12,185 nucleotides of DNA, from the NCBI GenBank assembly GCA_023150055.1, contig JAKLLP010000031.1, positions 1-12,185 on the forward strand, written 5' to 3'. The notes under the pieces were generated by a model that ran no database searches, was not told the DNA's origin, and saw nothing but the letters and a program-made list of their open reading frames with translations. Positions 6,959-10,972 of the stretch are shown here, one piece after another (position 1 is the first letter of the stretch; the number at the start of each line of letters is the position of its first letter). The DNA is from Gammaproteobacteria bacterium (GTDB lineage: Bacteria > Pseudomonadota > Gammaproteobacteria > Steroidobacterales > GCA-2729495). Position numbers and translations under genes: made by a program.

Positions 6959-7441
6959 TCACAGGTCGGTGGCGGCGGTGCGGCGGATCGTCTTCCAGTT
7001 GGCCTCGGCCTTGGCAAGCGTGCCGGCCGGATCCTTCTGGAAGGAACGCAGCACATCCTCGCCGAGAAAGACATAGAGCTTTCCGTCATGGATGGCGGCG
7101 TAGTGAGGGTTGCCGTCGAACTTCTTGCCGACCGACACGCCGAAGGCGCAGAAACCGCCGTACTGCGGCACGTAGCGGCCTGGTGCGGCCTTGAAGCGGT
7201 CGAGGTTCTCCTGGCTGGCAAAATAATAGGTGACGCCGTCGTGGACCGCGGCATAGCTGCCGGTTCCGTCGATGCGGTTGCCGATCTCCAGGAAGGCCAC
7301 CGGGTCGACTCCGTGCAGCCCGAGAGGCGCACCAAGGTACGTCAGCCCTGGAACGGTGTTGTGCTCGTCGGCGGCCAGAGCGGATCCGGCCGGAAAAATC
7401 AGCATTGCCGCTACGGTGGCTGTCAGTGGGATGCGGTTCAT
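6959..7441 (-). CDS. Exported YHS-domain protein
   Basis: Periplasmic protein (160 aa) of the YHS family, a small fold thought to bind metal, found in copper and heavy-metal handling proteins; its own job is unknown. Start ATG at 7441 has AAGGA 8 nt upstream and begins a clean signal peptide (MNRIPLTATVAAMLIF-, cleavage after ALA at about 23). The YHS core runs from GVDPVAFLEIG (about 44-54) through YYFASQENLDRFKAAPGRYVP (about 72-92) to YGGFCAFGVSVGKK (about 94-107). The single Cys of the mature protein (C98) lies there. A second half (YAAIHDGKLYVFLGEDVLRSF, about 114-134) loosely repeats the first (YAAVHDGVTYYF). A TGTAACC-N16-CATC site upstream puts it in the same predicted regulon as the divergent ECF sigma gene, suggesting an envelope stress or metal role. 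Confidence 0.85.
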   Translation of the reverse strand: MNRIPLTATVAAMLIFPAGSALAADEHNTVPGLTYLGAPLGLHGVDPVAFLEIGNRIDGTGSYAAVHDGVTYYFASQENLDRFKAAPGRYVPQYGGFCAFGVSVGKKFDGNPHYAAIHDGKLYVFLGEDVLRSFQKDPAGTLAKAEANWKTIRRTAATDL

Positions 7442-7506: not shown

Positions 7507-7533
7507 GATGCCGGCTGGCTCGTCCTGGTTACA
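7507..7533 (-). promoter_or_regulatory. Predicted ECF-sigma promoter of the YHS gene
   Basis: On the minus strand, TGTAACC (7533-7527) is followed by a 16-nt spacer and CATC (7510-7507), about 65 nt before the YHS start codon. The same box, spacing and -10 occur facing the sigma gene and before the SPW-like gene. GTAAC-type -35 boxes are a known ECF sigma preference; the match to this particular sigma is inference. Confidence 0.65.
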
Positions 7534-7566
7534 GGTAGCGCCGCAAGTTGCCCGATTCCGGCGACG

Positions 7567-7593
7567 TGTAACCTCCGCCGTGCCGGCGGCATC
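7567..7593 (+). promoter_or_regulatory. Predicted autoregulatory ECF promoter of the sigma operon
   Basis: TGTAACC (7567-7573), 16-nt spacer, then CATC (7590-7593). It lies back to back with the minus-strand copy, the two -35 boxes being 33 nt apart. Transcription would start near 7600, leaving a leader of about 100 nt before the sigma GTG that includes a small ORF. Self-activation is usual for ECF sigma genes. Confidence 0.65.
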
Positions 7594-7636
7594 TCATGTG
7601 AAGCCGCGGGCGATGCGGCCGGCGGAGAACCAGCAC

Positions 7637-7702
7637 ATGAGTCCAGTGATTTCATACAAGCATGAACCCCCACCGCGCCAGTTCTGCAGGCGCCACGGGT
7701 GA
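7637..7702 (+). CDS. Leader peptide ORF overlapping the sigma start
   Basis: A 21-codon ORF (starts MSPVISYKHE, ends FCRRHG) begins at ATG 7637 with GGAG 9 nt upstream. Its TGA (7700-7702) overlaps the GTG start of the sigma gene in a GTGA arrangement. The sigma GTG has no ribosome-binding site of its own, so translating ribosomes arriving from this ORF could re-initiate there. An in-frame ATG at 7613 would lengthen it to 29 codons. I recognise no family; it may be a coupling device and not a functional peptide. It could also be chance, as short ORFs are common in GC-rich leaders. Confidence 0.35.
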   Translation: MSPVISYKHEPPPRQFCRRHG

Positions 7703-8373
7703 CCGGGACAGAGCAGACGCCAACCCTGGCAGCACCCCCGGCGGAGCACCGGATCGCTGCGGATGATGCGTGCTCGGGCAGCGCGCACGGCCCGGGTGAC
7801 GAGGCGCAGCTGCTCCGGTCTCTTCGTGACGGCGACCGGAGTGCATTCGAGTTTCTGGTGCGCAGCCACGGCAACTACCTGTACAACGCAGCCCGGCGAA
7901 TCACCGGCGACGACGCCGAGGCCCGCGATGCGGTGCAGGACGCTCTGCTGGCCGCCCTCAGGCACTTCGACGACTTCGAAGGCCGTTCCAGTCTCAGGAC
8001 CTGGCTGTACAGGTTGGCCGTGAATGCCACGCTGATGCGCATGCGCACCCGGCGACGCCGCCACGAAGTCTCCATCGAGGAGCTCGTCGAGCCCGTGACG
8101 GGCATCCGCGAGGAGCCAGAGTGGCACTTCGCCGAGTCTGCCGAGGCGAGCATCGCCCGCAATGAGGTTCGCACCGCTGTGCGAGCCGGCATCGATCAAC
8201 TGGGGGACAAGTACCGTGAGGTGCTGATCCTCCGCGACATACAGGGCCATGACACCCGGGAAGTTGCGGCACTGCTCGGCGAGACCGAGGCCAACATCAA
8301 AGTGCGTCTGCACCGCGCCCGTGCCGCCCTGAAGAAAGCGCTGGAACCACTCTACCGGGAACAGTCCCCATGA
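7699..8373 (+). CDS. ECF RNA polymerase sigma factor (RpoE-like sigma-70)
   Basis: Extracytoplasmic-function sigma factor, 224 aa, directing RNA polymerase to stress promoters. Region 2 spans about 49-115: FEFLVRSHGNYLYNAARRI, DAVQDALLAALRH (the DxxQ core-binding patch, 77-90) and FEGRSSLRTWLYRLAVNATL (93-112, -10 recognition). A charged linker (about 116-155) leads to region 4 (about 157-215): LGDKYREVLILRDIQGHD, then the HTH TREVAALLGETEANIKVRLH that reads the -35 box. The first 35 residues are an unstructured extension, and the GTG start at 7699 is uncertain because it lacks a ribosome-binding site; an in-frame stop at 7663 limits the alternatives. The stop overlaps the next ATG (ATGA) of the anti-sigma gene, showing tight coupling. 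Likely regulon: itself, YHS and SPW-like genes via TGTAAC-N16-CATC. Confidence 0.92.
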   Translation: MTGTEQTPTLAAPPAEHRIAADDACSGSAHGPGDEAQLLRSLRDGDRSAFEFLVRSHGNYLYNAARRITGDDAEARDAVQDALLAALRHFDDFEGRSSLRTWLYRLAVNATLMRMRTRRRRHEVSIEELVEPVTGIREEPEWHFAESAEASIARNEVRTAVRAGIDQLGDKYREVLILRDIQGHDTREVAALLGETEANIKVRLHRARAALKKALEPLYREQSP

Positions 8374-8669
8374 AGCTGCGGAAATGGCTCCTGAAACTCG
8401 CCTATGCCATGGACAGGACACTGCCAGGACTGATCACCTGCGCTGAAGCCGAGCAATTCATTGACGATTACCTGGATGGGCGGTTGGCTGAGCGGGAACG
8501 CACGACGTTCGAGCGGCATATCCGCCTCTGCCCGCCGTGCCAATCCTATCTTGACGCCTATCGGCGCAGCGTAACGCTGACGCGGCTGAGCCCCGACGAC
8601 GCGTCCGGCGCCATGCCCGAGGAACTCGTGCAGGCGATCCTCGCGGCGCGGGACAAGTCGCAGCACTGA
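8370..8669 (+). CDS. Soluble zinc-binding anti-sigma factor (zf-HC2)
   Basis: Anti-sigma factor, 99 aa, expected to hold the upstream ECF sigma inactive. It shows the ZAS zinc pattern: C24, then H50-x3-C54-x2-C57 (ITCAEAEQFIDDYLDGRL ... FERHIRLCPPCQSYLDAYRR). The helix around the motif contacts region 2 and 4 of the sigma in known pairs. There is no membrane segment, so the signal is likely cytoplasmic; the HxxxCxxC set with the extra N-terminal Cys resembles redox-responsive members such as RsrA and ChrR, which lose grip when the thiols are oxidised. An Arg/Lys-rich N-terminus (MKLRKWLLKL) and a short helical tail (PEELVQAILAAR) complete it. The ATG sits in the sigma stop (ATGA), so both are made together. 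Redox sensing is inference. Confidence 0.88.
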   Translation: MKLRKWLLKLAYAMDRTLPGLITCAEAEQFIDDYLDGRLAERERTTFERHIRLCPPCQSYLDAYRRSVTLTRLSPDDASGAMPEELVQAILAARDKSQH

Positions 8670-8697
8670 CGACTGTCGCGCGCGGCCCCGGGACCGC

Positions 8698-8724
8698 TGT
8701 AACGTCCGTGCCCACGCCGGCATC
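8698..8724 (+). promoter_or_regulatory. Predicted ECF promoter of the SPW-like membrane gene
   Basis: TGTAACG (8698-8704), exactly 16 nt, then CATC (8721-8724), followed by the start codon at 8795. Third copy of the motif, differing by one base in the -35 box. It would give the membrane-protein gene a transcript independent of the sigma operon upstream. Confidence 0.6.
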
Positions 8725-8794: not shown

Positions 8795-9205
8795 ATGACC
8801 CGAATACGCATCCTGACACCCGCCGCGCACGGCGTTTTGGATTATGCCGCTGCGCTGACCCTGGCCCTGCTGCCGCTGCTGCTCGGCTTCAGTGGGCCTG
8901 CGCTGTGGGTATCTGCCGCTGGCGCGGCAGGGCTGCTTGCCTACAGCCTCTTGACCGACTACCGGTTCGGTGCTGCCCGGCTAATGTCCTTCCGCGCACA
9001 CCTCGCAGCAGACCTCACGGCAGCTGTCGCTTTCGCAGCGGCGCCCTTCCTGCTCGGCTGGTCGGGCCAGGTGGCAGCTTATTACTGGATCATGGCCGCC
9101 GGCGTCACCGCAGTAGTGGCGCTCACCCGGACGGAGGAACGCGGTGATCTCCGGCAGGCTGATCCCACCTGTTGCAGCGGAGCGCGGCCCACCCTGCCGC
9201 GCTGA
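8795..9205 (+). CDS. SPW-repeat-like four-helix membrane protein
   Basis: Inner-membrane protein, 136 aa, with four predicted helices (about 13-31, 35-53, 69-88, 93-111). The sequence is an internal duplication: HGVLDYAAALTLALLPLLLGFSG and HLAADLTAAVAFAAAPFLLGWSG each start a helical hairpin. This is the layout of SPW-repeat proteins, where the motif reads SPW-LLGF; here the Ser-Pro-Trp core is replaced by LPL and APF, so the assignment rests on overall pattern. Start ATG 8795 has AAGGAG 6 nt upstream; the longer frame to 8708 has none. The C-terminal 25 residues are polar with a CC pair. It lies behind the anti-sigma gene and has its own ECF-type promoter, which argues for a role in the same envelope stress response. 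Molecular function unknown. Confidence 0.72.
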   Translation: MTRIRILTPAAHGVLDYAAALTLALLPLLLGFSGPALWVSAAGAAGLLAYSLLTDYRFGAARLMSFRAHLAADLTAAVAFAAAPFLLGWSGQVAAYYWIMAAGVTAVVALTRTEERGDLRQADPTCCSGARPTLPR

Positions 9206-9412: not shown

Positions 9413-10972
9413 TCACCGCCGGCGCGTGCGAGCGCCGGGTGTCTTCCTGACGGCCCTACCCCAACGGCGCAGGAACTCCGTGACGAATGCCGGATAAGCG
9501 CCCGGATCGGTCACCAGCGGGGCGAGCGCCATCGCCACGCACAACGCCAGGTGATAGCCCTCGGAGCGCGAGGCAACCGCGCGGGCATAGGCCGGGTGGG
9601 CCTCGTTTACCCACACGACCGTGTCGACCAGACGTGCGAGTCCCGGCTCATCGGGTCGCGATTCGTAGTGGATCACCAGTCCGTAGCGGGCCGGGCGGCG
9701 GGGGCCCTGACGGGACGCGGCAGGCAGCTCCGCCGCCTGCGGCGAGGGTGGTTTCGATTCTTCGTCCGTCGCTGGTGGGGGCGGTACGGCGGGCGCCATC
9801 GGCTGGTCGTCGCGCGTGTCCTGATCGGGCGAAACGGACGCGGTGGCCGGAATGCTTGCCTGCACCCCGCCCCCGGGTGCTCCCATCGGCAGCCGACGCT
9901 GTCCGCCGAGGCGTTTTTCCACCAGGGAGGCCAGCATCGGAAACTCGTCGGCCAGGTTGACGAGCACGTCCTCGAGATCGCGTTCCACGGGCCGTGCCGC
10001 ACGGCGCTGCGCGCGCTCGTCCGGATCCTGCGCATCGCCCCACTCGGTAAGCTGGCGCACCACCGCTTCCTGGATCGCCCGGCGGTATGCCAGATAGATG
10101 GAGCCGCGGGATCCCGTGCGGATGAAGTCCCCCTTGTTCAGCGTCAGGCACTCGGCGAGCCCCGGTGCCTCGATCAAGCCGCCGATCCGATCGGCCTGCG
10201 CCGGGCTCACCCCAAGCCAGTCCCAGCCGCGTTTGATCACTTTGCCGTAGGTGCTGACCGCGAGCCCGCGCCGGTCCTCCGGGAGCGGCGCGGACTCACG
10301 CACGAGCCAGCCCACGGCGGAGGGCTTGCGCCGGCGCGACAGGCGCACCAGCAGATCCGCTCGTTCGGCGGCAAGCTCCGACTCGTGCACCAGCCGCTGT
10401 CCATTGACCTCGAAGGCAATGTCATGCCGATACAGTGGCACCAGAATCGCCGCGAGCGCGGGATCGAGGAGTGGCTCGTAATGGCGGCGGATCGCGCTCT
10501 CCACAAAGCCGACATCGAGGAGCAGTGAAAGCGGATCGCGCAGGTGCAGCCGGATCGCCGTGCCGCGCTCACCGACCAACCGCGGCGGCGCGGGGAGCCA
10601 GTGCCACGGCGCCTTGTGCCGGCCGGTGAGCGACCAGGTGGTGGCGAGGCGGGTGGCGCCCGTTCGGCTCTCCGTCACCACCTCGTGACCGATCAGGAGC
10701 CCGAGCTTCACCCCGACGCCAGCGAAGCCGATCCCCTTGCCGCGGGTCTTGGTGCTGGTGGCGAGATCGTGGTAGCGGGCCAGTTCACGCCGACGCATCC
10801 CGGAACCGTCGTCCACCACGGTGAGCGTGGCTGCAGCCGTGTCGGCTCTGATCCGGATGCTGCCGGCACCGGAATCGAGTGAATTGGCGATGACCTCGGT
10901 GAGAATCGTCTCCTCGATGCTGCCGGGATACGCATCGCGCAGATGCCTGAGGTCGACGCGGGTTTGGCCCAT
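9413..10972 (-). CDS. GHKL-fold (Hsp90/MutL-like) ATPase of unknown role
   Basis: Large protein (519 aa) with a Bergerat ATP-binding fold at the N-terminus. N box EVIANSLDSGA (E26, N30, D33), G1 box DDGSGM (54-59), and a glycine-rich lid GKGIGFAGVGVKLG (about 78-91) are all present, so ATP binding is expected. Lid chemistry and the HDLATSTK segment recall MutL/Hsp90/topoisomerase VI B rather than sensor kinases, and no histidine-phosphotransfer domain is visible. A middle domain (about 130-370) follows, then a Pro-rich disordered linker (about 385-425) and a separate C-terminal domain (about 429-506) with WVNEAHPAYARAVASRSEGY and a helical end. The ATG at 10972 lacks a ribosome-binding site. 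Neighbours are toxin-antitoxin relics on both sides, and no obvious partner is encoded next to it. DNA-linked or defence functions are possible for such ATPases, but I cannot assign one. Confidence 0.75.
   Translation of the reverse strand: MGQTRVDLRHLRDAYPGSIEETILTEVIANSLDSGAGSIRIRADTAAATLTVVDDGSGMRRRELARYHDLATSTKTRGKGIGFAGVGVKLGLLIGHEVVTESRTGATRLATTWSLTGRHKAPWHWLPAPPRLVGERGTAIRLHLRDPLSLLLDVGFVESAIRRHYEPLLDPALAAILVPLYRHDIAFEVNGQRLVHESELAAERADLLVRLSRRRKPSAVGWLVRESAPLPEDRRGLAVSTYGKVIKRGWDWLGVSPAQADRIGGLIEAPGLAECLTLNKGDFIRTGSRGSIYLAYRRAIQEAVVRQLTEWGDAQDPDERAQRRAARPVERDLEDVLVNLADEFPMLASLVEKRLGGQRRLPMGAPGGGVQASIPATASVSPDQDTRDDQPMAPAVPPPPATDEESKPPSPQAAELPAASRQGPRRPARYGLVIHYESRPDEPGLARLVDTVVWVNEAHPAYARAVASRSEGYHLALCVAMALAPLVTDPGAYPAFVTEFLRRWGRAVRKTPGARTRRR

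Follow-up and report, generated by a model that had tools for sequence, protein, structure and literature searches.

Introduction

The anti-sigma factor RsrA releases its sigma factor upon oxidation.

The published systems compared here are taken from excerpts of the cited papers. In the pairs Streptomyces SigR-RsrA, Neisseria SigE-MseR and Haemophilus RpoE2-HrsE, the sigma gene is followed by the gene for a small soluble anti-sigma factor of the ZAS type (PMC2893595, PMC7907618). The characteristic residues occupy positions 11, 37, 41 and 44 in RsrA and 4, 30, 34 and 37 in MseR; the MseR cysteines are needed, and in the excerpted account MseR was unresponsive to the oxidants tried (PMC2893595). 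HOCl induces the targets of Haemophilus RpoE2-HrsE, where HrsE is also of ZAS type (PMC7907618).

GTAAC-type -35 elements are described for other ECF sigma factors. The ECF16 promoter is (T/C)GTAAC-N17-CGAA (PMC8315932), and the EcfF promoter is GTAAC(g,a)-N14-15-(t,c)CG(t,a) (PMC3420878). SigD of Corynebacterium glutamicum uses a -35 element of GTAAC(A/G) and a -10 element of GAT (PMC6338062).

Here we analysed a 12,185-nt stretch of DNA (the window), in which an earlier note had described three promoter-like sites around an ECF sigma gene and proposed that this sigma reads them as a self-contained regulon.

Results

Layout of the locus

The window contains three matches to TGTAACS-N16-CATC, arranged with their genes as follows.

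6959..7441, minus strand: YHS protein of the YHS_seleno_dom family, probably exported (Pfam YHS, 38.5 bits; NF041384, 113.1 bits, cut-off 70)
7507..7533, minus strand: promoter-like site TGTAACC-N16-CATC, facing the YHS gene (pattern match and occurrence in relatives)
7567..7593, plus strand: promoter-like site TGTAACC-N16-CATC, facing the sigma/anti-sigma operon, putative autoregulation (pattern match and occurrence in relatives)
7637..7702, plus strand: upstream ORF of 21 codons in the leader of sigma, preceded by GGAGAA (read from the sequence)
7699..8373, plus strand: ECF sigma factor, regions 2 and 4 (Pfam Sigma70_r2 and r4_2; TIGR02937, 104.5 bits)
8370..8669, plus strand: zinc-finger (ZAS-type) anti-sigma factor, 99 residues (Pfam zf-HC2, 37.2 bits)
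8698..8724, plus strand: promoter-like site TGTAACG-N16-CATC, facing the SPW-like gene (pattern match; several relatives have a site 3' of the anti-sigma gene)
8795..9205, plus strand: small membrane protein resembling the SPW repeat domain (Pfam SPW, E 2.2e-05, 25.3 bits, below the cut-off of 31.5)

The coordinates, strands and common spacer given for the sites in the earlier note were exact, and each site does point at a gene, with a plausible start codon 3' of it. The distance from the last base of the site to the start codon is about 65 nt for YHS, 105 nt for sigma and 70 nt for the SPW-like gene. One promoter motif is therefore found 5' of the sigma gene as well as 5' of other genes, the arrangement of an autoregulated ECF factor.

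The sigma factor has Sigma70 regions 2 and 4 only and belongs to the ECF factors (group IV). Its start codon is GTG 7699, which is overlapped by the TGA of the upstream ORF (GTGA). The sigma gene has no clear ribosome site of its own; together with the overlap, this suggests that its translation is coupled to that of the 21-codon ORF.

The anti-sigma factor carries C24, H50, C54 and C57 in the pattern C-x25-H-x3-C-x2-C and has no transmembrane-like stretch over its whole length (top 19-residue hydropathy, 0.88), as in ZAS proteins of the RsrA/MseR type.

The YHS reading frame opens at ATG 7486, but ATG 7441, preceded by AAGGA, is the likelier start. The N-terminus is hydrophobic with a hydropathy peak at residue 6, and a signal peptide is predicted, as judged by eye. 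The SPW-like protein starts at ATG 8795, preceded by AAGGAG. It had been called a four-helix membrane protein; four helices were not clear, with three hydropathy windows above 1.6 in a simple scan. Elsewhere in the window (9413-10972, minus strand) lies a gene for a 519-residue HATPase_c_3 protein weakly like sacsin-like and BbrUII-type ATPase domains.

Comparison with described systems

The locus shares its gene order, a sigma gene and then a small soluble ZAS anti-sigma gene, with the SigR-RsrA, SigE-MseR and RpoE2-HrsE pairs (PMC2893595, PMC7907618), and the spacing of its four zinc-finger residues is that of RsrA and MseR (PMC2893595). It also resembles RsrA/MseR-type pairs in its predicted autoregulation, and the Neisseria regulon, as excerpted, is likewise small (PMC2893595, PMC7907618). 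Unlike in Neisseria, where the SigE/MseR consensus is GTMAGBWTT-N12/13-CGTCTAAH, the sites read TGTAACS-N16-CATC and do not follow that promoter (PMC2893595). The window outputs also differ from those of Neisseria and Haemophilus: they are YHS and SPW-like, with no DoxX or MsrAB among the window's scanned genes.

The ECF16 factors (Caulobacter SigF, Bradyrhizobium EcfF, Brucella BcrS) share the -35 TGTAAC and a similar spacer, EcfF is autoregulated, and oxidative or hypochlorite stress is involved (PMC3420878, PMC8315932). However, their -10 element is CGAA-like and their anti-sigma factor is a six-helix DUF1109 membrane protein (PMC3420878, PMC8315932). Membership of ECF16 was rejected, as the -35 agrees but the -10 differs and the partner is a zf-HC2 protein without a transmembrane-like stretch.

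The comparison with Corynebacterium SigD concerns promoters and regulon content: the -35 GTAAC(A/G) agrees in part, and the SigD regulon includes the gene of its own inhibitor, rsdA, whereas its -10 is GAT, its targets are cell-wall genes and its host is of a different phylum (PMC6338062). With CATC as the -10, the window sites are not of the SigD kind. ECF26 factors (Sinorhizobium RpoE1/E3/E4/E6) also have the anti-sigma gene directly downstream, some with neighbouring or divergent targets, but their promoter has GGAATA at -35 and GT at -10, and their anti-sigma factor has a transmembrane segment (PMC6180224). Both promoter and anti-sigma of the window differ, and ECF26 was rejected too.

The three sites compared with chance

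None of 200 dinucleotide shuffles of the window contained TGTAACS-N16-CATC. The looser pattern GTAACN-N14..18-CATC, expected 0.14 times, found the same three sites and none further, in agreement with the earlier statement that the window has no other copy with CATC at such a distance. Directly 5' of CATC, all three sites have CGG (giving CGGCATC). The rest of the spacers are dissimilar, so the sites are not copies of one repeat.

Sigma relatives and their sites

Genome searches, each including the own genome, gave sigma matches in 12 of 296 genomes of the order (1e-30), 6 of 369 of the class (1e-50) and 2 of 398 of the phylum (1e-50). The nearest metagenomic sigmas (P0002-P0010) reach 76% identity to that of the window. 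A contig scan was queried with an alignment of 32 sigmas, and the best 80 of 377 loci were kept, so nearer kin possibly lie outside them.

Upstream of the sigma genes (420 bases, both strands), GTAAC-Nk-CATC peaked at k = 17, in 21 of these best 80 of 377 loci; k = 16 gave 4, and every other k from 8 to 27 gave at most 3. After the relatives were inspected, the -10 class was widened to C[AG][TA]C. The resulting class site, [TC]GTAAC-N17-C[AG][TA]C, lay within 600 nt of the sigma gene in 45 of 100 loci, a set of 92 enlarged by 8 longer re-reads and additional genome loci, with some overlap. Neither this count nor the clade and shuffle counts below include sites that fall within the sigma gene.

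A tree of 97 sigmas was built by a quick method without bootstrap, leaving out L013, L018 and L025 (copies of L149, L077 and L142) and L012, L105-L110, L150 and L151 (copies or shorter pieces of other rows). In this tree the window sigma falls in a 42-row clade with an SH-aLRT of 97. All 42 clade anti-sigmas, the window's included, have C-x25-H-x3-C-x2-C and lack a transmembrane-like stretch from the zinc finger onward.

The class site was present in 34 of 42 clade members versus 9 of 55 sigmas outside, with -10 forms CATC (22), CAAC (9) and CGTC (3). Leaving the window out, 33 of 41 clade operons had the class site beside them (shuffles: mean 0.43, maximum 3) and 17 of 41 had strict TGTAACS-N16-CATC (shuffle mean 0.04). 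Outside the clade, the 9 of 55 compare with a shuffle mean of 0.51 and the strict form, in 4 of 55, with 0.01; the motif exceeds shuffles there too, and the link between clade and site is thus not exclusive. As in the window, clade sites lie 5' of a divergent gene, of the gene after the anti-sigma gene, or of both.

These counts bear on the idea that the sites are three chance similarities or copied GC-rich repeats with no promoter function. In its favour are the GC content of the window (67%), the CGGCATC common to all three sites and a genome-wide count of the loose pattern no better than chance (11 matches versus 9 in a reversed control). The shuffles, the spacer fixed in relatives and the clade counts largely refute this idea, and the unlike spacers argue against a copied repeat; we consider it very improbable. 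The proposal that the sigma reads these sites held up as the best reading, since the motif is common beside clade sigmas in several phyla.

Ten loci from the window's own order (L014-L017, L019-L024) were also inspected. In 7 of them the sites end in GGCAAC instead of CATC, a variant of the -10, and two of them precede ABC-transporter ATPase genes.

Clade members without a near site

Eight clade members lack a near site: L021, L052, L069, L102, L141, L142, L143 and L144. L141, L142 and L143 (57, 56 and 51% identical to the window sigma) are the nearest among the loci read (for contigs, the best 80 of 377), and no class site was found near their operons. L142 has TGTAACC 5' of sigma with CATC missing, and L143 has neither; in L144 and L069 the sites lie farther off. 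L102 shows the full three-site layout (divergent, facing sigma and after the anti-sigma gene) with a spacer one base shorter, and its third site precedes a gene that is DoxX-like by eye. Conservation, proposed as a check in the earlier note, is therefore mixed: most of the clade has the site, and the three nearest relatives read lack its exact form.

Output genes in relatives

One Na+/H+ exchanger family is encoded in 16 of 42 clade loci versus 0 of 55 outside (home-made profile, 1e-20; locus lengths differ), and it is PF00999 in the 10 loci scanned with Pfam. Other genes at the divergent position in the clade encode an FMN reductase, a DUF3179 protein, a YjeF_N protein and an ABC ATPase. After the anti-sigma gene come genes for acetoacetate decarboxylase, GH15, DUF2721 and HvfA-like peptides. 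Among the 44 downstream proteins listed, some of them the sigma genes themselves, 30 were scanned. The YHS and SPW-like genes of the window occupy the same two positions.

In L074 (6140-6457) and L145 (6687-7010), a site TGTAACCTTTT...GCATC precedes a gene for an HvfA-type metallophore peptide, which passes NF050137 in L074 and is named by resemblance in L145. The HvfA-like genes behind these sites are a likeness to Neisseria and Haemophilus, where the controlled DoxX cluster is presumably of a similar type.

The YHS/ECF/zf-HC2/SPW set, whose conservation the earlier note had also proposed to check, did not recur in any of the loci read (for contigs, the best 80 of 377). In repeated profile searches, the window YHS and SPW proteins matched no relative in those 80 contig loci or in 12 loci of the order. 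YHS matches were found at 36 places in 24 of 196 genomes, of which 30 loci were read, one being the window's own; SPW matches occurred in 5 of 196 genomes. Within the same order, the site was upstream of none of the YHS relatives (0 of 32 loci, 29 distinct) and none of the SPW relatives (0 of 5 loci, 4 distinct), and no such sigma lay beside any of them in the stretch read.

In two genomes of the same family, neighbourhoods of interest were seen. L147 (G162:C70, 1724-6045) carries YHS (60% identical) and SPW (57%) genes about 2.3 kb apart, and no relative of the window sigma was found in the stretch read. As in the window, uracil-DNA glycosylase-like and GST genes are present, with AraC-like and P460-like genes nearby, all four named by eye. 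L146 (G107:C44, 6885-17861) has three YHS_seleno-type paralogues within 11 kb.

Another GTAAC-reading sigma elsewhere in the genome, for example of the ECF16/SigF type, could use the three sites as its promoters, making the neighbouring sigma incidental. This -35 is common to other ECF sigmas, namely ECF16 (PMC8315932), EcfF (PMC3420878) and SigD (PMC6338062), and a genome that is 73% complete leaves room for one. However, the window -10 is CATC, the sites follow the window's sigma clade, and those YHS and SPW relatives that were read without such a sigma alongside lack the site upstream. We regard this explanation as unlikely.

The site in the own genome and genus

The source assembly comprises 2.65 Mb and is 73% complete. 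Across it, GTAACN-N16-CATC matched 11 times versus 9 for the reversed control. Of the 11, 4 had the full TGTAACS form: besides the three window sites, there is one on contig C366. The latter, TGTAACG-N16-CATC, ends 24 nt 5' of a GTG start with AGAGG ahead, before a gene whose product is weakly LpxH-like (NCBIfam, 37.2 bits; cut-off 134). It is a lead only, because chance alone would yield about 0.9 strict matches in 2.65 Mb of the window's base composition. No useful match was obtained when counterparts of this site were sought in the genus. A further match, on C491 with CCGGCATC, sits inside a 293-codon reading frame and was discarded.

The regulon may thus extend beyond the locus, for example to the LpxH-like phosphatase gene on C366 or to genes in the quarter of the genome that the assembly lacks, which would be compatible with the sigma reading its three local sites. 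The fourth strict site, with its nearby start codon, and the weak LpxH likeness speak for such an extension; the number of strict matches expected by chance speaks against it. Loosening the -10 to CRWC gave 10 matches, three of them the known sites, versus 16 in the control, and a wider regulon defined in this way was rejected. Overall, an extended regulon is a minority possibility. The genome-wide search proposed in the earlier note thus found the pattern at chance outside the window, which fits a small local regulon and adds no support to it. To call the regulon self-contained goes further than a 73% complete genome with a fourth strict site allows.

In 9 other genomes of the genus, no match was found to the sigma (1e-20), YHS (1e-10) or SPW (1e-5) protein. 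The set may therefore be of recent origin or, less likely, reflect a binning error.

Discussion

We propose that the ECF sigma encoded between the three sites reads them as promoters. In the resting state, the sigma would be bound by the soluble zinc-finger anti-sigma factor; a stress signal, possibly the oxidation of cysteines at the zinc site, would free it. The freed sigma would then transcribe its own operon in positive feedback and, as putative outputs, two flanking genes: the divergent one, encoding the exported YHS protein, and the downstream one, encoding the SPW-like membrane protein. To this autoregulated switch we give a probability of roughly 85%. Recognition of the sites by the sigma is the best reading of comparative evidence, and this core of the earlier interpretation stands, without its self-contained regulon.

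The redox step has about even odds. It draws on the residue spacing, on the behaviour of RsrA and on the induction of Haemophilus RpoE2 targets by HOCl (PMC7907618), and it is weakened because MseR, in the excerpted account, did not respond to the oxidants tried (PMC2893595).

Judged by its sequence, the locus is very probably a small autoregulated ECF regulon of a familiar kind, with swappable outputs. A bolder and doubtful idea is that of a portable cassette, in which the sigma, its soluble zinc-type anti-sigma and a promoter with invariant -35 and spacer might move together from lineage to lineage, with the -10 drifting from one sub-branch to another (CATC, CGTC, CAAC). Two docking positions would take different effectors: Na+/H+ exchanger, flavin reductase, DUF3179 or YHS at the divergent one, and acetoacetate decarboxylase, GH15, HvfA-like peptide or SPW after the anti-sigma gene.

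A limited literature search, which included excerpts of PMC6180224, PMC10880074, PMC3420878, PMC8315932, PMC3240639, PMC7907618, PMC2893595, PMC6338062 and PMC3511301, found no description of the promoter motif or of a YHS/ECF-sigma pairing. The promoter class may already be listed in the 2021 ECF reclassification.

TGTAACC-N16-CATC is offered as a candidate promoter code for this sigma clade, for which the same limited search found none. The locus would also give a first regulatory setting to two poorly understood families, the exported YHS proteins (candidate selenoproteins) and the SPW-like membrane proteins, and would align them with the Na+/H+ exchanger that follows a site of this kind in many relatives.
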